From positions 1 to 64,000 of the forward strand of contig CAJYKU010000031.1 of the NCBI GenBank assembly GCA_913775175.1: a stretch of DNA of 64,000 nucleotides, given 5' to 3'. This stretch comes from an uncultured Pantoea sp. (lineage in GTDB: Bacteria > Pseudomonadota > Gammaproteobacteria > Enterobacterales > Enterobacteriaceae). Under the pieces are notes generated by a model that was not told the DNA's origin, did not search any database, and saw nothing but the letters and a program-made list of their open reading frames with translations. Below, one piece after another: positions 3,597 to 16,985 of the stretch (positions are counted from its first letter, which is position 1; each line of letters opens with the position of its first letter). The position numbers were made by a program, and so were the translations under genes.

Positions 3597-4241
3597 TTAT
3601 CTGTTTTCTGAACGCACGTTGGCGAAATCTTTCAGATTAAAATGGTATTCTGGCTGGAACCAGACACGTCCGTAGTAGCAAAACAGCAGCATTCTTACGG
3701 AAACCAGCGCCAGATATCCCCAGATAGCGCACAATACTGATGGCATCAGCCACAGCGTAAACAGTGTTACGACCAGCCCTGCGATAACAGATGCAATTTC
3801 TGTGATTGCAATAGAGGTAAACTGTTTTTCCCGCTGCAGAATGGCACGATAGTGCTGTCCCTGCGGGATAATGATAAATATCACTGACATCATTTCCAGC
3901 ATCAAAGCCAGCTGCGACTGCCCGGCAATATAACTGTAGATATTGATACCGAAAAAAAGAGTTGCAAAGATAAATAAGCCAACAAAAAGGTTTCCCCAGT
4001 AAAGCAGGGAAAGCCCGCGGTTATTAATATCTCTTTTACGAATGATTGCGTTACTAAACCCGCGATCGGCAAGCGTATCAATTGCCAGTAGCAGCAATAT
4101 AGTCACAATCAAAAGATTTAATTCATTTGCCTGCAGGATTTGCGCCAGCAGTGTTAATTGTAAAACACCAATGCCAATAATTTTAACTGAAGAGAGCAGC
4201 GACCATCTGGCGCTGGAGAGATCTCTTTCACGTATAGCCAT
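3597..4241 (-). pseudogene. truncated polysaccharide flippase (Wzx/WzxC type), N-terminal half
   Basis: 214 residues with about six hydrophobic segments and a composition like the MATE/MVF-type exporters that flip lipid-linked sugar repeats (WzxC, AmsL). Residues 8-16 (LSSARWSLL) and the segment DTLADRGFSNAIIRKRDIN (near residue 55) match the N-terminal half of that family, whose members are usually 450-500 residues. The protein stops after FNLKDFANV, just where the second half should begin. I read it as a decayed gene that lost its C-terminal half. The stretch is AT-rich relative to the flanking conserved genes. A short functional membrane protein cannot be excluded but is unlikely. No glycosyltransferase or polymerase gene accompanies it. 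Confidence 0.65.
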
Positions 4242-8377: not shown

Positions 8378-8597
8378 GCGATCTCGCCCTGCGTACAGTC
8401 CGAACCTGATTCTGATAGAGTAGCAGTGGAAAGTGATGAATGAAATGGTGAGAAATAATCGCTACTTCACATCTGCCAGTGAGTTACGGTAAGAAAGACA
8501 TAAATTATTTCACGAAACATTACCGGCTCTTGCCGGGGTACTGTCACAACAAACTAACGATACCCTCCAGCTACTGGAAAAGGCACTTTTAAACTAA
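8378..8597 (+). pseudogene. IS630-family transposase, C-terminal remnant
   Basis: The plus strand reads AYSPNLILIE, an in-frame TAG, then QWKVMNEMVRNNRYFTSASE, a second stop, and finally LPALAGVLSQQTNDTLQLL before a terminal TAA at 8595-8597. YSPNLNxIE...WK is the C-terminal DDE-domain signature of IS630-type transposases, where the Glu of IE is the third catalytic acid. Two internal stops and the missing N-terminal two thirds make it inactive. Confidence 0.75.
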
Positions 8598-9076
8598 TCA
8601 TATATATAGTCGTAATACTGCGGCAGGCTTTCTCATGTTACTGATTTTTCTTTTCAGTATATTGGAAATATTATGACAAAACCGACATATACCAATGTTA
8701 ATTTGATGTGACCTCGGCAAACAGCATGGTATCTGTGATCACCAGCCTGGCGATCTCTCTGTTGACCCGCCTGCTCATTATCCACTGCTCACTCTAACGC
8801 TCTAACGTAGATATAACTATGTCATAAGATATTTATTATCCTTATTTTAAAGTGATAAAAGCATGAGAAAAAACATGCGGCAATATCTGTAAGTTCATGT
8901 TTTTTATGAACTAAGTGATATTATAAAAAAATCATTATTATATTCACAAATGTGTATTATATATTATCGGCGGATTTTACGATTAGCTTAAAACTGCTTA
9001 CGCATGGGCAGTATTTATACTTATCAGCATAAATCTATGCGCGACTCTTTAACTTTTTTAAAAAGGATTTTAAATT
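8598..9076. other. AT-rich leader upstream of the fimbrial operon
   Basis: About 480 bp, very AT-rich in the last 250 bp, with no gene. It should carry the fimbrial promoter. Short hairpins are present, for example GTTCAT/ATGAAC at 8893-8911, but there is no inverted-repeat pair or recombinase gene of the kind that flips type 1 fimbrial promoters. The AT-richness would suit H-NS silencing, which is inference. Confidence 0.4.
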
Positions 9077-9628
9077 ATGAATAAATCCGTCATTTCTATG
9101 GGCGTATTACTGGCAACGATTTCTATTTTTCCTCTTCATGCTGCGCCAGGGGGAGCAGGACAAATAGAATTTACGGGCACGATTACCGCGAGCACCTGTG
9201 ATGTGGATATTAACGGACAGGGAGGAAACCCCACTATTAACATGGGGACGATTTCTTCTTCAGTATTTAAACAAGCTGGTGACTTTGCCGGCGCTCACCG
9301 TATTCAGATTGAGCTAACCAATTGTGAAACAGACGTACTTAAAAAGGCGGCGGCACGATTTAGCGGTAGTATCGACAGCATTAACAATAATTTGCTTGCT
9401 CTCAAATCCGGGGGAGCTACAGGATTAGGTATTGAGTTTCTAAATCGTGATGGTTCGACATTGCCTCTGGGCACTAATCCAAATGAGTTTGTTGATATTG
9501 TCGGCACAGCTGGTAGTTCAGATGCTCATGCCACACTGCTTTACTCTGCACGTTATAAGTCAACTGTAACGGCAGTTACTACAGGAGCGGCAAATGCCGT
9601 TGCTGATTACACCATTATTTATAACTAA
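9077..9628 (+). CDS. fimbrial major subunit (chaperone-usher pilin)
   Basis: 183 residues with a Sec signal peptide ending around FPLHA (residue 22). The mature protein has the pilin pattern: a beta-strand start (GQIEFTGTITASTCDV) with the first Cys near residue 40, the second Cys in LTNCETD near residue 76, and a C-terminal beta-zipper strand ending VADYTIIYN with the penultimate Tyr. The subunit is held by the periplasmic chaperone and assembled by donor-strand exchange into the fibre. A good ribosome site (AAGGAT) precedes the ATG. It is first in an operon with chaperone, usher and adhesin; the 55-bp gap after it is short. Confidence 0.9.
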   Translation: MNKSVISMGVLLATISIFPLHAAPGGAGQIEFTGTITASTCDVDINGQGGNPTINMGTISSSVFKQAGDFAGAHRIQIELTNCETDVLKKAAARFSGSIDSINNNLLALKSGGATGLGIEFLNRDGSTLPLGTNPNEFVDIVGTAGSSDAHATLLYSARYKSTVTAVTTGAANAVADYTIIYN

Positions 9629-9683
9629 CTTAACAATATTGTTCCGGGCCATATATCTTAGCCCGGAATATTAAGGACACTTT

Positions 9684-10367
9684 ATGTTAAGACAACGCTA
9701 CCTGATGGTATTGGCTCTGCTCTTGAGCTCCTGTCTGTCACACGCCAGTGTAACCTTGTCAAATACGCGAGTGGTGTACAACGCTAACAGTAAAGAAAGC
9801 AATATCAATGTTACAAACAATGGTATTACGCCTTTTCTGGTACAAAGCTGGATAGAAAATATTGACTCACAGGATTCTCAATCCCCCTTTATCGTAACAC
9901 CTCCGCTTTTTCGCCTGGATTCAGGAAAAAGTAACGCACTGCGTATTATTTATAAAGGTTCCATTTTACCGCAGGATCGTGAGTCACTTTTTTGGCTCAA
10001 TGTAAAGTCGATCCCCTCGTCCGCAAAATCAGATAAAAATAAATTACAAATAGCTGTCAATACCAGAATAAAATTATTTTATCGACCGGTGAATCTGGCG
10101 GATGATATCAGCGACATAAGCAAAAGTGTTGATTGGTCTGTTGCGGGTGACAAACTTATTGTTCATAACAACTCTTCTTACTATGTTTCTTTTTCTGAAG
10201 TAAATATTAATAAAAAAAACATAACGGAGATAAAAATGGTTGCTCCAAAAAGCAGCAAAGAATTTTCTCTCAAAGGTATTGAGGTAAAAAGGAAAGAGCC
10301 TGTTTATTGGAAGTATATTAACGACTATGGTGGGAGTAGCCCATTGATAAAACAAGAAATTGAATAA
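9684..10367 (+). CDS. periplasmic fimbrial chaperone (PapD-like)
   Basis: 227 residues with a signal peptide ending near SHAS (residue 22). Two Ig-like domains follow. The conserved subunit-anchoring residues are visible: Arg in SNTRVVYN near residue 29 and Lys in NTRIKLFYRP near residue 129. The stretch ESLFWLNVKSIP (near 110) is the family signature at the F1-G1 region, whose short loop fits the FGS class. It caps pilin subunits in the periplasm by donating its G1 strand and delivers them to the usher encoded next. The 37-bp gap to the usher start fits co-transcription. Confidence 0.93.
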   Translation: MLRQRYLMVLALLLSSCLSHASVTLSNTRVVYNANSKESNINVTNNGITPFLVQSWIENIDSQDSQSPFIVTPPLFRLDSGKSNALRIIYKGSILPQDRESLFWLNVKSIPSSAKSDKNKLQIAVNTRIKLFYRPVNLADDISDISKSVDWSVAGDKLIVHNNSSYYVSFSEVNINKKNITEIKMVAPKSSKEFSLKGIEVKRKEPVYWKYINDYGGSSPLIKQEIE

Positions 10368-10404
10368 GAAAGTTTTTTAATGGTTCTTTCAAGGATGATT
10401 TTCT

Positions 10405-12897
10405 ATGACCATTTCTCAGGGCATATATCCAGCTCTTTGCTTTTTTTGGCTATTGCCGGGCCAGCTATACGCTGGTGAGTATTTCGATCCTGCATTTCTG
10501 GAAACAGGCAATGCACCACGCACGACTGTGGATCTTTCTTTGTTTGAAAAGAAAGATAGTCAGATACCTGGCGATTATCGTATTGATCTTTTTTTAAATA
10601 ATAAATTTTACGATACCCGTGATGTAACCTTTCGGCTGGAAGTGAACGAACAGAACGAAAATTTTCTGGCTCCCTGCCTGAGTAAACAAATGCTCGTTTC
10701 ACTGGGTGTAAAAACGGCAGCATTTCCTGCGCTGCAAGATGATACTCAAGGCTGCGTGAATCTGGCAGCAATTCCGCATGCTGGCAGCGAATTTGATTTC
10801 AACGAACAGAAGCTAAAACTCTCTATTCCTCAGGCAGCGCTGAAAAATACGGCGCATGGCTATATCGATCCTGCACAGCGGGAGCAGGGCATTTCAGGCC
10901 TTATGCTTAGCTACAACTACAGCGGTGCGAGCTGGAAATCGGGTAACGGCACTGTTGCTGATAGCCACTATCTTAGTCTGCGTCCGGGGCTGAACATTGG
11001 CCCATGGCGACTACGCAACTTCTCTAGCTGGAATAGCAGTCAGGGAAATGCTGGTCGCTGGGAGTCCGTTTATACCTATCTGCAACGTGATATCACGGCT
11101 CTTAATGGCCAGCTCATCCTTGGAGATAGTAATTCCACGTCCGAAGTTTTTGACAGTACCCCTTTTCGTGGAGCTCAGCTTTACTCAGATGAACAAATGC
11201 AGCCTGGCAGCCTGCGAGGCTACGCGCCGGTGATCCGCGGTATTGCCCGAACTAATGCCCAGGTCACTATTATTCAGAATGGATACAGCATCTATCAAAG
11301 TTATGTACCTCCCGGTGAATTTGTTATCAACGATCTCTATCTCGGTAACAGCGGCGAGCTGAAAGTCGTAGTGAAAGAGGCGGATGGTAGCGAACAGATC
11401 TCTCTGGTGCCTTACGCTTCGGTAGCGATTATGCAGCGGGAAGGACAATATAAATATGAGGTTGTTAGTGGCACCTACCGCTCTGGCAGCCACGATGCAA
11501 AGAGTGCTCCTTTTACTCAGGGAAGCCTGATTTATGGTCTTCCGTGGGACACCTCAATATATGGTGGCATGCAGGCCGCCAGTACCTATCAGTCCCTGCT
11601 TTTTGGCGCAGGTAAAAATATGGGTAGCCTTGGTGCATTGTCATTTGATATCACCCAGGCCTGGGCTACCACTAAACAGGCAGAAAAAAAACGCGGGCAG
11701 TCGTTACGTCTTCGCTATAACAAGAATTTGTTATCAACAGGCACCAGTATCGCTATTGCAGGCTACCGCTATTCAACGACCGATTACTATACGCTGGGCG
11801 AAACGTTGAGTAGCTATCATTCACACTACGCTAATCCTGAACGGCGTCGCAGCCGTACAGAGCTGACGATAAATCAAAACCTGGGAAGCGATATCGGCTA
11901 TCTCTCTGCCATGCTGGTTAGTGAGGCATATCATACCAGCAACAAACGTAACACCTCCGCTACGCTAGGCTATGGCAATAGCTGGAAGGGTATTAGCTAT
12001 AGCCTTAATTACAGCCACAACCTGAACGTGATAAAAGCAAATAGCCAGCGCCATTATAACCAGGAGAATTTGTTTAGCCTGAGTATGAGTATACCGCTGG
12101 ATAAATGGCTCTCCTCAACACGCGCCAGTTACGCTTTTTCTGCAGCCGACAAACGCTCATCGGGTCATCGTGTCTCTCTTAGCGGTAGCGCCCTTAAGGA
12201 CAACAATCTTAACTGGAACATACAGCAAAATATTAATCCTGGTACCCAGGCAAACAGTAGCGATGCATCGTTTAGTTACAGTGGCCGTTATGCGCAGGTT
12301 GGTGCCGGCTATGGCTACAGCAAGAATGCAAAACGACTGAACTATAACCTGCAAGGGGGTCTGCTGGTTCATCCGCATGGCATAACACTCACGCCGTCGC
12401 TGGGTGAAACGATCGCTCTGGTTGAAGCCCCTGATGCCGCGGACGTGAGCGTTCGTAATCACACCGGAGTGAGTACTGATTTTCGGGGATATGCTGTCGT
12501 ACCGAATCTTATCCCTTATCAGGAGAACACCATCCAGCTTGGTTCTGACACGCTGCCGGATAATATAGAGCTGGAAAGCAACAGTCATAAAGTTGTGCCA
12601 ACCCGGGGGGCTATCGTTCAGGCTCGTTTTATCACTGCCATAGGTAAACGTCTGCTGATGACGCTTACAGATGTACATGGCAAGCCAATTCCCTTCGGTG
12701 CCGTGGTTACGCAGCACACAACCAGCCGTATCGTTGGCGATAAAGGCATCGTATTTCTTACTGGTATGGAGAACAAGGGCACTTTAGAGGTGAGTTGGGG
12801 TAAAAATCCCCATCAGCGCTGTCAGGTTCACTATCAACTCACTAATCATGAACCCACTGCAGGCGGCATTGTGCAGCTAACACAGATCTGCAAATAG
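10405..12897 (+). CDS. outer-membrane fimbrial usher (FimD/PapC family)
   Basis: 830 residues, the normal usher size. A signal peptide ends near LYAGEYFDP; YFDPAFLE is the typical mature N-terminus that recruits chaperone-subunit complexes. The 24-stranded beta-barrel includes the family block DSTPFRGAQLYSDEQMQPGS (near residue 252), followed by RGIARTNAQVTIIQNG at the plug domain. The C-terminal domains contain DFRGYAVVPNLIPYQEN and a conserved Cys pair near the end (Cys of HQRCQVHY and QICK). The usher orders subunit polymerisation and secretes the fibre. It is intact and most likely functional. Confidence 0.95.
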   Translation: MTISQGIYPALCFFWLLPGQLYAGEYFDPAFLETGNAPRTTVDLSLFEKKDSQIPGDYRIDLFLNNKFYDTRDVTFRLEVNEQNENFLAPCLSKQMLVSLGVKTAAFPALQDDTQGCVNLAAIPHAGSEFDFNEQKLKLSIPQAALKNTAHGYIDPAQREQGISGLMLSYNYSGASWKSGNGTVADSHYLSLRPGLNIGPWRLRNFSSWNSSQGNAGRWESVYTYLQRDITALNGQLILGDSNSTSEVFDSTPFRGAQLYSDEQMQPGSLRGYAPVIRGIARTNAQVTIIQNGYSIYQSYVPPGEFVINDLYLGNSGELKVVVKEADGSEQISLVPYASVAIMQREGQYKYEVVSGTYRSGSHDAKSAPFTQGSLIYGLPWDTSIYGGMQAASTYQSLLFGAGKNMGSLGALSFDITQAWATTKQAEKKRGQSLRLRYNKNLLSTGTSIAIAGYRYSTTDYYTLGETLSSYHSHYANPERRRSRTELTINQNLGSDIGYLSAMLVSEAYHTSNKRNTSATLGYGNSWKGISYSLNYSHNLNVIKANSQRHYNQENLFSLSMSIPLDKWLSSTRASYAFSAADKRSSGHRVSLSGSALKDNNLNWNIQQNINPGTQANSSDASFSYSGRYAQVGAGYGYSKNAKRLNYNLQGGLLVHPHGITLTPSLGETIALVEAPDAADVSVRNHTGVSTDFRGYAVVPNLIPYQENTIQLGSDTLPDNIELESNSHKVVPTRGAIVQARFITAIGKRLLMTLTDVHGKPIPFGAVVTQHTTSRIVGDKGIVFLTGMENKGTLEVSWGKNPHQRCQVHYQLTNHEPTAGGIVQLTQICK

Positions 12898-12923
12898 TCG
12901 TATGTTCATTAAAGGAATCCATA

Positions 12924-13958
12924 ATGACAATTAAAGCGTTATCTGTTTTCCTGGCAGTATGCGGTTTTATGGCACTGCCTGCTTTCGCTGCTGCTGTTTC
13001 AGGTAGCTGCTGGCCGATAGAAAATTCGGCACATCAGTTTCAGATTCAAAAAACCCTGACTGCCGAAAATTCCTCAAATACAGCTCGGGAAACGTGGGAT
13101 AATTTAGGAAACTTCGAGGGCACCTGTTTTTGCAACAATCCCAGCGTTGCGGAAAGTATTTATTTTGTTTTTAAAAGCTCTCGCCTGAGCCAGGGAGGCG
13201 GCACGCGCAGCGGAGACGTTATTTATTATACACTGGATAGTAAGAGAGGCATTGATATTGGTATTAACGTAAAAATCGGTGGACATGTCGGAGAGTATGT
13301 ACCTGTCGATCTGGAAAACACTACAGGGGTAGATAATAAAAACATTACAACCCGGGACTGTGAGGATAACAGCAAAAGTTATCCCTTCGGAACTGGATCC
13401 GAAGGGATTGTCCATTTAAAATTTAATCAAACCCTTTCGGGAACGTTCAATATTATTGCGCAAAACTTAATCACAATCTATGCCAGAAAAAGAACAGGTG
13501 ATTTCGACTATTCTAAACCCTTTGTTACGCTTAGCTTTAATCTGACAGTGAACATTCCGCCAAATTGTCGTATCAATGACGGGGCGGATATCAAAGTGCC
13601 CTTTGGCAATATCTCTGCAGGAGAGTTTAATCCTGAAGCGACCAGTAAGCAGCAAAACGTGCCTCTGAAAGTTACCTGCGATAATCCTGAGGATGTCAGA
13701 AATGTAAGTATCAAGTTTCGCGCCGTTGACTTTAATAAGGAAGGAAATATAAAGACGCAAAACAATCAGGGGCAGCAGCGTCAGGATATGGGAATAAAAA
13801 TATCCCATAACGGTAAAAAAATAGATGCTGCCAGTGCGGCAATCCCTTTACAAGGAGAGGAATTAACTATTACTGCAACGCCTGTAAAGCAGGAAGGGAA
13901 ATTTCCAGAACCTGGAGACTTTAAGGCTACGTCAACGCTGGATTTTGAATTTAATTGA
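12924..13958 (+). CDS. two-domain fimbrial tip adhesin
   Basis: 344 residues with a signal peptide ending near FAAAV (residue 24). An N-terminal domain of about 190 residues with four Cys (SGSCWP, GTCFC, RDCED) is followed by a C-terminal pilin domain beginning PPNCRINDGADIKVPFGNIS (near residue 212) with its partner Cys in VTCDNPED. This is the architecture of tip adhesins such as FimH or MrkD, in which the first domain binds a host or environmental ligand and the second joins the fibre. The lectin half matches no family I can name. The gene lies 26 bp after the usher, last of the four core operon genes. Confidence 0.85.
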   Translation: MTIKALSVFLAVCGFMALPAFAAAVSGSCWPIENSAHQFQIQKTLTAENSSNTARETWDNLGNFEGTCFCNNPSVAESIYFVFKSSRLSQGGGTRSGDVIYYTLDSKRGIDIGINVKIGGHVGEYVPVDLENTTGVDNKNITTRDCEDNSKSYPFGTGSEGIVHLKFNQTLSGTFNIIAQNLITIYARKRTGDFDYSKPFVTLSFNLTVNIPPNCRINDGADIKVPFGNISAGEFNPEATSKQQNVPLKVTCDNPEDVRNVSIKFRAVDFNKEGNIKTQNNQGQQRQDMGIKISHNGKKIDAASAAIPLQGEELTITATPVKQEGKFPEPGDFKATSTLDFEFN

Positions 13959-14063
13959 AGAAATGGCTTAGATCAGAAAAGTAATATCTTATTCTGCTTT
14001 GTCTATTATTGCTGTTATAAATGATTTGGTGTTATTTATTCATAAAATATAGGGAGTTATGAT

Positions 14064-15938
14064 ATGAAAGCGAGAAGCAAAAAACGTATAGTGCTATGCA
14101 TCGCTGCCTTGTTGGGCACAGGCACAGTGGCATCTCAGGTTCAGGCCAATGATATTGAGCCTTATTCTGCACCTTTTTCTGTCAAAGGTGAGAAGAGTAG
14201 AGATTATTTCGGCATGACAATGACCACAATCGGTAAATTTTCTGACAAAGACAGTAAAAATCATGTTGCCGGAGAAGATATCCTGATTACTGCCCCATGG
14301 GGAGATAACTCAAAAGGTATCGCTTACGTTATTTTCGGTACTTCCAACGGCAATACTATGCAGGAAGTCAACAGCGTTGCGGACTTCAATCCGCAAAATG
14401 CCCTTAAAATATTCCATAGTAATAAAGCCAATAAACCTGGCTCAGTGACAACAAAGTGGATGGGCAGCGCGGTACGCAAAATTGGTGATCTTAACGGCGA
14501 TGGATATGATGATTTGGTGATCGCTTCTCACTGGAATGATCAGGTTTATATTATCTGGGGCGGACCGCATCATCGTAGCGGTACACGCCTTTCTAACCAG
14601 ATAGATCTTAATGATATTGATAATGGTAACTCTCGCCTCGGTATTCGCATTCGTACGGTGACAGCTTCAGGCTCGGCCAATACTGGCGGCTGGTTTGGTA
14701 CCTCAATTGGTCCGATTAAGTACAAAAATTCCATTGCTGACGATAATAATAAGATGGTCGATCTCGCTATTGGCGATATTGATGGTACCGGTGGCCGTGG
14801 CGGAGTTGTGATTATCTACGGTAATAAAAAACCAGGTGAGCAGTGGAAGAATATCGATCTTAAACGCGATAGTTTGGGTAACTGGGCCGTTCCGGCTGAG
14901 GTCGGTGCCTATATTCGTCCGCAAATGACCGCTACTAATGGCCCGGAAAAGCCACTTAACTATAACCTCGGTCAGCAAATCAGCGACGTAGGTGATATCA
15001 ATGGCAATGGTTATAGTGATTATCTGATAGTGGATCCAGAATCTGTTAATGAAGGCCGAAAATCTGCTAACAGTGGTACAGATGGTCGTGGTACCGCCTA
15101 TCTGGTATATGGCAGTAGCTTTAACCAGGGAAATCTCGATATTTCCTCGCTTAATGCCGGACAAGCCACTCGCATTCATGGTATGGGTAGAGCCTTTCTG
15201 GGAGGGCAAACGGGGGGATCAGGTTCAATGTCTGGATCTGGCGATTTTAATATTTATCAGGAGTCCAAAAATAATAACGGAACCATTACACCGTTAGGCA
15301 ACTTTCTGAGTAAGCGTTATAACTCTTTTGCTATTAGCGCGCCTGCTGATGTAGGTATTGATGGCAAGCGTTCTGGATTGGTATGGATTATCAAAGGTAA
15401 ATCAGACGGAAGCAAACTAGCACCCTCCCTGTTCCTTGATGCAGCACATACCAGAGTTAACTATAACAAAACCTTTAGCGTAAAAGATGGCTATGCTATC
15501 TACAACGACAGACCTGGTAACAAACTAGCGGGATTTGGCCACAGTATTCTTGGCAATGTCGATCTGAACGGTGATGGCAGAAAGGATTTGGTAATCGGCG
15601 ATCCAAATGCGCTTAATGATAGTGGTATTCAGGTTGGTGCAGTCTATGTGATTCGTGGAGGTAGTTATTTGGATGAATATGCTGATGATGAGGGTATGAT
15701 CAATATCAACGATTTAGTTCGTGCAAAGATCGCTGATGTCTACTGGGGTAAAAATCAGTTTGAAAAATTTGGTGTGTCTGTTGCAGCCGGCAATTTTAAC
15801 GGCTACACGAAGGATAGTCTTGCCATCGGTTCTTATCGTGATAACAGCTACACAGGCAAGGTTATTTTCCGTATGGCGGATTATATCGTCCCGGACTATC
15901 GTGCAGATTCAAAACAGACTGCCATAGCGCCTAAATAG
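14064..15938 (+). CDS. secreted FG-GAP seven-blade beta-propeller protein (integrin-alpha-like)
   Basis: 624 residues. The N-terminus (RSKKRIVLCIAALLGTGTVA, cleavage near QVQA, residue 28) is a Sec signal peptide. I count seven FG-GAP-like blades at about residues 48-92, 131-166, 208-253, 300-350, 380-445 (degenerate), 487-532 and 566-602. Three carry canonical DxNGDG-type calcium loops: DLNGDGYDD (142-150), DINGNGYSD (311-319) and DLNGDGRKD (500-508). Typical strands such as AYVIFG, VYIIWGG, AYLVYG and VYVIRGG close the blades. No membrane anchor, LPXTG or autotransporter domain is present. The gene starts 105 bp after the adhesin with AGGGAG upstream and may be a fifth operon member. A calcium-dependent adhesion or glycan-binding role is inferred from the fold only. 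Confidence 0.82.
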   Translation: MKARSKKRIVLCIAALLGTGTVASQVQANDIEPYSAPFSVKGEKSRDYFGMTMTTIGKFSDKDSKNHVAGEDILITAPWGDNSKGIAYVIFGTSNGNTMQEVNSVADFNPQNALKIFHSNKANKPGSVTTKWMGSAVRKIGDLNGDGYDDLVIASHWNDQVYIIWGGPHHRSGTRLSNQIDLNDIDNGNSRLGIRIRTVTASGSANTGGWFGTSIGPIKYKNSIADDNNKMVDLAIGDIDGTGGRGGVVIIYGNKKPGEQWKNIDLKRDSLGNWAVPAEVGAYIRPQMTATNGPEKPLNYNLGQQISDVGDINGNGYSDYLIVDPESVNEGRKSANSGTDGRGTAYLVYGSSFNQGNLDISSLNAGQATRIHGMGRAFLGGQTGGSGSMSGSGDFNIYQESKNNNGTITPLGNFLSKRYNSFAISAPADVGIDGKRSGLVWIIKGKSDGSKLAPSLFLDAAHTRVNYNKTFSVKDGYAIYNDRPGNKLAGFGHSILGNVDLNGDGRKDLVIGDPNALNDSGIQVGAVYVIRGGSYLDEYADDEGMININDLVRAKIADVYWGKNQFEKFGVSVAAGNFNGYTKDSLAIGSYRDNSYTGKVIFRMADYIVPDYRADSKQTAIAPK

Positions 15939-16130
15939 TATCCTGCTTTCACAGTAAAGTTTGCTGTAGCGACCGGACCGGGCGATAAAAGATACGGCCC
16001 TGGTCGCTGTTACCTGATTCGGTTTTATCTGAATTGGCTGTTATTATTGCTCTGATTAGTATCGGCACACCGAATTTGGATACCTGAACAAAGGTGATAT
16101 CTTCACCTTACAGTCAAAACAGGTGACATT

Positions 16131-16285
16131 ATGACCGGACGTAACAGACGTAATTTTAGTGCAGAGTTTCGCCTCGAAGCTGCCCGGCTTGTACTCGATC
16201 AGCATGGCACCGTTGCCGCGCTATGACAATGTGCGCCGGCAAATCCACGATAGATAAACTTGAAAAAGGAGTGAGGAGGGAAATT
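16131..16285 (+). pseudogene. IS3-family transposase OrfA, N-terminal remnant
   Basis: Starting at an ATG with AGGTGA upstream, the frame reads RRNFSAEFRLEAARLVLDQH, the helix-turn-helix start of IS3-type OrfA proteins. It hits a stop at 16222-16224. The neighbouring frame continues the same protein as CAGKSTIDKLEKGVRRE, so a single frameshift splits it. The sequence then runs directly into an antisense integrase remnant. The rest of the IS is gone. Confidence 0.75.
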
Positions 16286-16985
16286 ACCCATAACGCCAGC
16301 AACGCTTTAAAAGTGATCTCGTTCTGGCGGCTAAATCCCTTTGCGGTACGTATGGCAGCAAACAACCGGATTAATTCATCGCGCGTTAACCATCTGTCGC
16401 GGGTTATCTCTTTGCCGCCTGCTTCTGCCACTTCAAAGGCGGAGCGCGGGTTAATCTCTGGGGCATGGCGTTTAATACCGTAGTCCAGTATACGGCGCGT
16501 CCAGCGTAAGACATCACTGACTATGGCAGACGCTCCGCGCGCGACAGACGATCTTTTGCAGCATATTGTCGATGTGTCGGGGGCGAACGTCCTCTACCTT
16601 AAGGTGGCCTATGTTAGGGTTTATGTCCTTATCGATGCGGCGGTGCAGAATATTCGGGTGTTTTCATCGTCCCGCAATCTGGCACTCGAAATGCTCTGCG
16701 GCTAATTCTGATACCTGGAGCGTGTTTTTCTCCTGCTCTATTTTCTCCAGCGTGTCAGCTTTGCGTTCCTGCTTCTCCCCGGCTATATCAAAGCGCAGGG
16801 CAACCCGGACTAGTAGTTCTTTGGCTGTCTCTCTTGCTTTAGCTAATGACATTTCGCCATAAGAGCCAATTAGCATAACCCGCGACTTGCGGCGAACTGA
16901 TACTGGAAGCGCCACACAGAGACTTTTTCCCCCACCCGGTGACGCAGATAAAGCCCGTTACCGTCTGAGCGCCTCTCAAACCGTT
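16284..16985 (-). pseudogene. frameshifted P4-type tyrosine integrase remnant
   Basis: On the minus strand three frames together spell a P4-like integrase. RFERRSDGNGLYLRHRVGEK (about 16985-16925) is the N-terminal DUF4102-type start. SRVMLIGSYGEMSLAKARET comes next (16890 down). A stretch reading NIGHLKVEDVRPRHIDNMLQ follows. Last is RDRWLTRDELIRLFAAIRTA with FKALLAL at 16284. The catalytic C-terminal half with the R-H-R-Y residues is missing, cut off where the IS3 remnant begins. It is inactive but marks past integration of a genomic island. No tRNA gene is nearby. Confidence 0.75.

Follow-up and report, generated by a model that had tools for sequence, protein, structure and literature searches.

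A chaperone-usher operon that carries a predicted secreted FG-GAP propeller as its fifth gene

The DNA analyzed here (the window) is a stretch of 64,000 nucleotides (nt) from contig CAJYKU010000031.1 of an uncultured Pantoea sp. At positions 9077-13958 it contains a minimal chaperone-usher operon, made up of a major pilin, a chaperone, an usher, and a two-domain tip adhesin, followed by a gene for a putative secreted β-propeller with FG-GAP repeats (Table 1). An earlier note on this DNA had described a complete fimbrial operon and, on the same strand 105 nt after the adhesin, a gene for a 624-residue protein carrying a Sec signal peptide. All of this was confirmed by five open reading frames (ORFs) at the given places on the plus strand and by the Pfam matches, and a Sec-type leader is visible in the translation. 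The C-terminal PF00419 domain of the adhesin was placed by Pfam at residues 204-343 of 344, and the adhesins of two related operons described below (L035 and L036) likewise have two domains with a C-terminal pilin domain. In NCBIfam, no fimbrial gene reached the cut-off of any family listed (highest scores: LpfD for the adhesin, 75.8 bits versus a cut-off of 412; for the usher, 750.8 bits versus 995), and for this reason we class the operon as an unnamed chaperone-usher type.

Table 1. Genes and features of the fimbrial locus in the window.
Feature	Coordinates	Strand	Basis
Major fimbrial subunit, FimA/PF00419 type, 183 residues	9077..9628	+	ORF, Pfam, NCBIfam
Periplasmic PapD-type chaperone, 227 residues (PapD_N + PapD_C)	9684..10367	+	ORF, Pfam, NCBIfam
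Outer-membrane usher, 830 residues (PapC_N/Usher/PapC_C)	10405..12897	+	ORF, Pfam, NCBIfam; usher tree
Two-domain tip adhesin, 344 residues; N-terminal head (fast-evolving) and C-terminal pilin domain (PF00419); weakly similar to LpfD	12924..13958	+	Pfam, NCBIfam, head comparison
Adhesin-propeller gap, 105 nt	13959..14063	+	ORF coordinates
Secreted FG-GAP propeller (predicted), 624 residues, Sec-type leader of ∼28 residues, seven blades by sequence	14064..15938	+	ORF, Pfam, profile self-comparison
Hairpins 3′ of the propeller, possible transcript end, weak in the window	15969..16037	+	Terminator scan, folding

The 624-residue protein matched the Pfam family FG-GAP (PF01839) with 46.1 bits (cut-off, 22.1), and its orthologues in L035 and L036 scored 104.8 and 44.8 bits, respectively. 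No other Pfam match above cut-off was obtained, nor any match to PF00419 or another pilin family. The Sec-type leader, judged from the sequence by eye and without a signal-peptide program, consists of a basic MKARSKKR segment, a hydrophobic stretch, and QVQA at residues 25-28. Seven blade starts of the form "phi-G" were recognized by eye (residues 49-50, 133-134, 211-212, 302-303, 411-412, 491-492, and 569-570), and at six of the seven positions the glycine is invariant across four diverged orthologues. Comparison of the profile with itself revealed internal repeats at offsets of ∼84, 169, 253, 355, and 442 residues (best E 3e-11), and this period of ∼85 residues fits the seven FG-GAP-like blades that the earlier note had proposed. 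Its count of three DxNGDG calcium loops had to be corrected: only two are strict (positions 142 and 500), and the third, at 311, reads DINGNG in the window, where the orthologue from Lelliottia (L002; 81% identical) has DINGDG. Three strict loops are present in L002 and fewer in L036, and the propeller is probably calcium-stabilised. AlphaFold2, run on a two-row alignment (window and L002), returned a predicted local distance difference score (pLDDT) of 29 and a predicted template modeling score (pTM) of 0.23; the propeller fold and the closed seven-blade ring are predictions from the sequence. A sequence search against solved structures (PDB) returned integrin alpha chains only, and the alignments shown span one or two blades. 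Practically no N-terminal extension is available as a donor strand. Because of this, together with the missing pilin domain, polymerization of the propeller by the usher in the normal way appears unlikely, and judging from its domain content the protein is a non-pilin.

Stand-alone orthologues recurred as the fifth gene of the same operon. A genome_contigs scan of 84,980 species, with six short peptides as the query and reaching close relatives only, yielded one relative, in Lelliottia nimipressuralis (L002), where the gene is again the fifth of the operon. A two-row propeller profile run over a sample of 392 family genomes matched four of them: the window's own genome, G472 and G645, which each encode a stand-alone protein, and G469, in which the domain is fused. 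G472 (locus L035) and G645 (locus L036) represent two further genera, and in both the stand-alone propeller is once more the fifth gene. Within the genus of L002, 3 of 61 genomes carried the propeller, including that of L002 itself (G810); in the other two (L118 and L119), both the site and the operon are those of L002. Elsewhere, the stand-alone gene was present in one of six genomes from the genus of G645 and in the one genome from the genus of G472, and among 61 genomes of the window's own genus 1 had it as a stand-alone gene and 8 in fused form. Each of the six stand-alone orthologues with neighborhoods that were read (window, L002, L118, L119, L035, and L036) is thus the fifth gene of this operon, and in all six operons the propeller gene is the last. 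The six occupy four chromosomal sites, one of which is shared by L002, L118, and L119. No full-length stand-alone orthologue was found outside this operon within the collections searched, and plasmids, phages, Escherichia coli genomes, and viral contigs gave no propeller match. Such fimbrial operons are a rare type, and the propeller gene was present in every case examined.

A profile of the adhesin head matched 79 of 392 family genomes, which appear to be the same as those of the propeller scan, with its three stand-alone propellers. The three genomes with stand-alone propellers gave the three strongest matches; the same three had trained the profile. We dropped the gap in adhesin scores as independent evidence, since leave-one-out profiles recovered the adhesin of G472 but not that of G645 above ordinary relatives and the gap is thus in part a product of the sequences on which the profile was trained. 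At 36 other loci with relatives of the adhesin (27 from the head scan and nine from another search), no propeller match was present within ∼1 to 1.5 kb of flank, versus three of three propeller carriers. Twenty of the 36 were taken as comparison operons over larger stretches, and these contained no propeller match at E 1e-3, nor, when read from stop to stop, at E 1; 18 of the 20 stretches extend 2.3 kb or more beyond the adhesin, and two end at contig ends after 492 and 723 bases. In a tree of 24 ushers (20 comparison and four propeller operons), the four propeller ushers formed one clade (support, 96/98), with which 98% of 200 bootstrap trees agreed, although ushers closer than those sampled could exist. 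In the adhesin tree, the window, Lelliottia, and G472 adhesins fell into one clade (100/99), and the G645 adhesin was placed elsewhere on a long branch; monophyly of all four is shown by the usher tree and not by the adhesins.

A separate promoter or terminator between 13958 and 14064, which the earlier note had considered, was looked for with consensus scans, and neither a promoter-like nor a terminator-like site was found inside the 105-nt gap. The gap folds like its shuffles (z 0.01). One promoter-like match begins at the ATG of the propeller gene, and promoter-like matches of the region were not above the shuffle mean. The adhesin-propeller gap measures 105 to 291 nt across the orthologous operons, and none of the four operons scanned (window, L002, L035, and L036) had a coding-strand terminator-like site between the two genes. 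Behind the propeller stop, such a site was present in L002 (11851-11876), L035 (3299-3285), and L036 (2805-2790), the stretch in L002 folding far better than its shuffles (z -5.64); the hairpins in the window are weaker than these sites. Terminator-like sites are consensus matches, and their number was compared with that in shuffles (L002, 7 versus 8.9; L036, 12 versus 8.3; L035, 18 versus 10.6; window, 14 versus 7.1), which puts their frequency near chance in L002 and L036. The functional linkage with the fimbria that the earlier note had suggested is well supported by the occurrence of six of six orthologues in the operon, the usher clade, and the lack of a terminator-like site between adhesin and propeller in the operons scanned.

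Between the window and L002, the propeller is the most conserved product, with 80.7% amino acid identity (usher, 79.3%; major subunit, 74.9%; chaperone, 70.0%; adhesin, 56.1%), at a synonymous divergence (dS) of >1 throughout. In five wider pairs, identities were 40 to 50% for the propeller, 25 to 34% for the adhesin, 43 to 56% for the chaperone, and 48 to 63% for the usher; with the window or L002 set against L035 or L036, the propeller kept 43 to 50%. L002, L118, and L119 are closer to each other, with a dS of 0.2 to 0.6 outside the adhesin and 86 to 96% identity in the four non-adhesin genes. Their propellers are 95.4 to 95.9% identical, and the ratio of nonsynonymous to synonymous divergence (dN/dS) is 0.044 to 0.057, below that of the other four genes in each of the three pairs. 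As measured by this ratio, the propeller is shown to be under strong purifying selection among the sister loci. The adhesin heads of the three loci are only 53.4, 55.2, and 65.8% identical, and since their dS is >1 or saturated, the pattern is as expected if the head had been replaced by recombination. The stretches that differ in this way at the one site are L002 8849-9480, L118 6742-7370, and L119 6957-7590. Identity of the adhesin pilin domain is 72 to 74% between L002 and its sisters and 93% between the sisters. As the propeller does not track the change of the receptor head, we infer that its bound partner, i.e., its binding target, has stayed constant.

Relatives of the propeller outside the operon were found as domains of giant proteins. 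Eight congeners in the window's own genus matched at 31 to 35% identity, all within frames of 1,123 to 2,393 residues (L013-L020), and the best profile match among the giant adhesins (E 1e-80) came from the other genus (L037, in G469). Domain scans covered three of these nine proteins: L013, L014, and L037 contain Big_13 and Big_6 repeats plus FG-GAP in Pfam, L013 and L014 have Ca-tandemer repeats in NCBIfam, and L013 matched the BapA-related SiiEA family below cut-off (81.8 versus 425 bits). By eye, an ABC-type ORF adjoins eight of the nine loci, L019 being interrupted by a contig end. At L013, the only locus where this ORF was scanned, the neighbors are a type I ATP-binding cassette (ABC) transporter (TIGR03375, 852.5 bits) and an HlyD-type adaptor, both over cut-off, and a TolC-type protein below it. 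The giant repeat adhesins of the eight congeners and the other genus are probably type I-secreted. In all nine, the matched domain ends 139 to 182 residues from the C terminus, and L013 and L037 match nearly the whole 599-position propeller profile (36-583 and 39-578). The C-terminal end of such giant adhesins points away from the cell. Because its relatives sit near the C terminus of giant, probably type I-secreted adhesins, the propeller module probably has its normal place of action outside the cell, and two secretion systems seem to make use of it for adhesion. The earlier note had held that homologues scattered without a fimbrial neighbor would speak against linkage. Full-length stand-alone proteins of this kind were not encountered in the collections searched; homologues away from fimbrial genes do exist as domains fused in the giant adhesins, which are probably adhesion proteins themselves. 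In a class-level sample of 369 genomes, 29 had matches, the own genome included; outside the latter these were partial FG-GAP matches only (best, 46 bits) in frames of 159 to 8,401 residues, so that shorter, apparently unrelated FG-GAP proteins exist in this sample. Two proteins of ∼2,390 residues with scattered FG-GAP matches from an order-level set (G006 and G072) were left out of all counts.

The stretch shared by the window and L002 extends from the ATG of the major subunit to the end of the propeller gene. These borders follow from the flanks: when 1.5 kb upstream and 1.3 kb downstream of the window operon were compared by blastn with the corresponding flanks of L002, L035, and L036, no match was obtained at E 0.01; at the other sites, the neighboring genes were assessed by eye. 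AT content is higher in the window cassette than around it, and 3′ of the cassette lie an integrase arm-domain fragment on the minus strand (PF13356, 29.2 bits versus a cut-off of 27) and a weak, below-cut-off transposase-like N-terminal fragment (PF01527). A five-gene cassette moving as one unit would fit this arrangement. The decayed mobile DNA occupies 16131-16915, just 3′ of the operon and before yicC, and suggests a former island. Upstream of the operon, no convincing invertible phase-variation switch was found, only one imperfect 15-nt inverted pair (8422-8436 and 8775-8789), which has a perfect core of 9 bp, a separation of 338 nt, and a position ∼290 nt 5′ of the major-subunit start. 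In size it resembles an invertible fimbrial switch, but pairs of such length can be due to chance. Farther upstream, between ligB and an lpxP-like gene, lies a MOP-flippase-like ORF of 214 residues (3597-4241) that covers positions 1-207 of a 492-position model and is probably truncated. At L035, a 287-residue ORF (11751-12614), by eye a winged-helix membrane regulator with no NCBIfam match at 1e-5, is divergent from the G472 operon.

We regard it as an even call that the locus is a five-gene chaperone-usher operon whose fifth product is an exported companion propeller acting as a constant second binding module. The operon would build a thin fiber with a variable tip lectin that handles changing receptors, and the Sec-exported propeller would work outside the cytoplasm as the constant module. 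Its ligand would most likely be a matrix polysaccharide made by the cell itself or a widespread surface glycan, alternatively the fiber itself, and fiber-bearing cells would be glued into the matrix or onto surfaces through it. That the propeller belongs to the same adhesion system as the fimbria is highly probable; that it acts extracellularly rather than in the periplasm is the likelier option, held with some reserve; and binding to an unchanging glycan or matrix ligand, as the mechanism in particular, is put forward tentatively, as falling somewhat short of an even chance. A glycan- or matrix-binding companion is favored because the locus resembles the split of Bap1/RbmC into a constant propeller and an exchangeable head. 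Several observations weigh against the companion reading. Seven of the nine giant-adhesin domains match only from profile position 134-177 of 599 onward, and when the comparison operons were selected, it was already known that no propeller lay in their short flanks. In the wider pairs, the usher is above the propeller in identity and the chaperone equal or above, and a periplasmic assembly factor would show equally high conservation. Given its occurrence in 3 of 61 and 1 of 61 genomes, the propeller is dispensable for the genus of L002 and for the window's own genus, respectively. The structure search matched integrin chains, not Bap1. Bap1 is exported by type II secretion; a type II secretin was over cut-off in only two of four propeller carriers (G810 and G472), and G645, whose genome is 100% complete, had none over cut-off (best, 174 bits versus 351). 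The window's own genome (G000) is 75% complete. Type II secretion as a common export route is therefore not shown for all carriers.

The secretin count also fits a periplasmic accessory factor, which would assist the tip adhesin or the usher-chaperone complex by folding it, holding it, or checking its quality: the propeller has a Sec-type leader only, the search gave no outer-membrane route common to the carriers (GspD exceeded its cut-off in two of four), and its conservation is nearer to that of usher and chaperone than to that of the adhesin. We nevertheless consider this role unlikely, as the nearest relatives of the propeller belong to giant adhesins that are probably type I-secreted, 20 related operons with the same gene set do without it, its gene is last in six of six operons and away from the chaperone, and the adhesin head was swapped without a matching change in the propeller. 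We know of no usher that passes a folded 60-kDa non-pilin, and without a pilin domain and practically without an N-terminal extension for donor-strand exchange, the propeller is a doubtful candidate for a non-pilin fiber part that docks on the adhesin pilin domain or the shaft and exits with the pilus as a two-headed fiber. The adhesin pilin domain, moreover, varies (72 to 74%; 93% between sisters), whereas the propeller does not. Such a part would nonetheless account for the co-occurrence with one usher clade and the position of the gene directly after that of the adhesin; it would also agree with the location of the homologous domain 139 to 182 residues from the C terminus of the giant adhesins, and type IV pili offer a precedent for a pilus-associated propeller in PilC, whose β-propeller domain is named in a table of PMC4257694. 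A hybrid adhesion fiber, in which a non-pilin seven-blade propeller of giant-adhesin-head stock is exported with the fimbria and mounted on it as a constant second head beside the rapidly exchanged tip lectin, is similarly improbable.

Co-inheritance alone is no proof of joint function, and the propeller gene might be an unrelated adhesin gene hitch-hiking on the same mobile cassette; in the window, integrase-like and transposase-like remnants adjoin the AT-rich cassette, and adhesin and propeller genes are separated by 105 to 291 nt without overlap. This we judge quite improbable, since the pair has been kept at four sites despite divergence of the usher down to 48% and of the propeller down to 40 to 43% identity, and terminator-like sites follow the propeller and not the adhesin in L002, L035, and L036 (at near-chance frequency in L002 and L036). 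The last option in the earlier note was that the propeller is released and imitates matrix proteins of a host or plant, which would make it an integrin-like decoy. Integrin alpha chains are indeed the best sequence matches among solved structures; however, these matches cover one or two generic FG-GAP blades, FG-GAP was the only integrin domain matched, the close family consists of bacterial adhesin domains, and a dN/dS of ∼0.05, the lowest of the five genes in the sister loci, gives no sign of diversification. Mimicry is thus very improbable.

Chaperone-usher operons normally encode pilins, a chaperone, an usher, and regulators. The clade described here has a large, predicted secreted non-pilin propeller as a fixed fifth gene, under tighter constraint than the tip adhesin, and represents a new variant of this operon type. 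None of the papers listed in searches of open-licence full texts described such an operon in its title or in the abstract start shown. The clade points to a division of labor in bacterial attachment, with a receptor head that can be exchanged and a binding module that stays constant, and the related propeller on giant adhesins of the same genus suggests that one binding module is used in two unrelated secretion systems.

Among known systems, the Lpf/Stg-type fimbriae (LpfABCD) share with the window operon the order major subunit-chaperone-usher-adhesin and a two-domain adhesin; unlike them, the window operon has a fifth gene for the propeller, absent from the 20 related operons, and ushers in a clade of their own. 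Giant SiiE/BapA-like adhesins have a homologous FG-GAP domain, which is fused behind many Ig-like repeats and, at L013, adjoined by type I secretion genes, whereas the window protein is free, consists of FG-GAP repeats only, and has a Sec-type leader. The integrin alpha propeller is likewise built of FG-GAP blades with calcium loops and provides the best PDB sequence matches, but the window protein is bacterial and free-standing, has no Pfam match to a further extracellular integrin domain or a membrane anchor, and is similar over one or two blades. By domain content, the protein is neither Bap1 nor an integrin. PilC is located at the tip of type IV pili. PilC/PilY1 offers the parallel of a propeller working with a pilus, albeit of another pilus system and likened here by description. 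Bap1 and RbmC of Vibrio cholerae are, as described in PMC10102183 and PMC3161981, signal-sequence proteins built on an FG-GAP propeller, like the window protein; the conserved propeller binds the exopolysaccharide (VPS) directly and other domains bind surfaces (PMC10102183), and the domain make-up is described in PMC3161981 and summarized in PMC10903470. The window protein differs from them in having no β-prism or EF-hand match in Pfam, seven blades as predicted from the sequence, and a place in a fimbrial operon, where a Bap1/RbmC-like split between a constant propeller and an exchangeable head is spread over two proteins.

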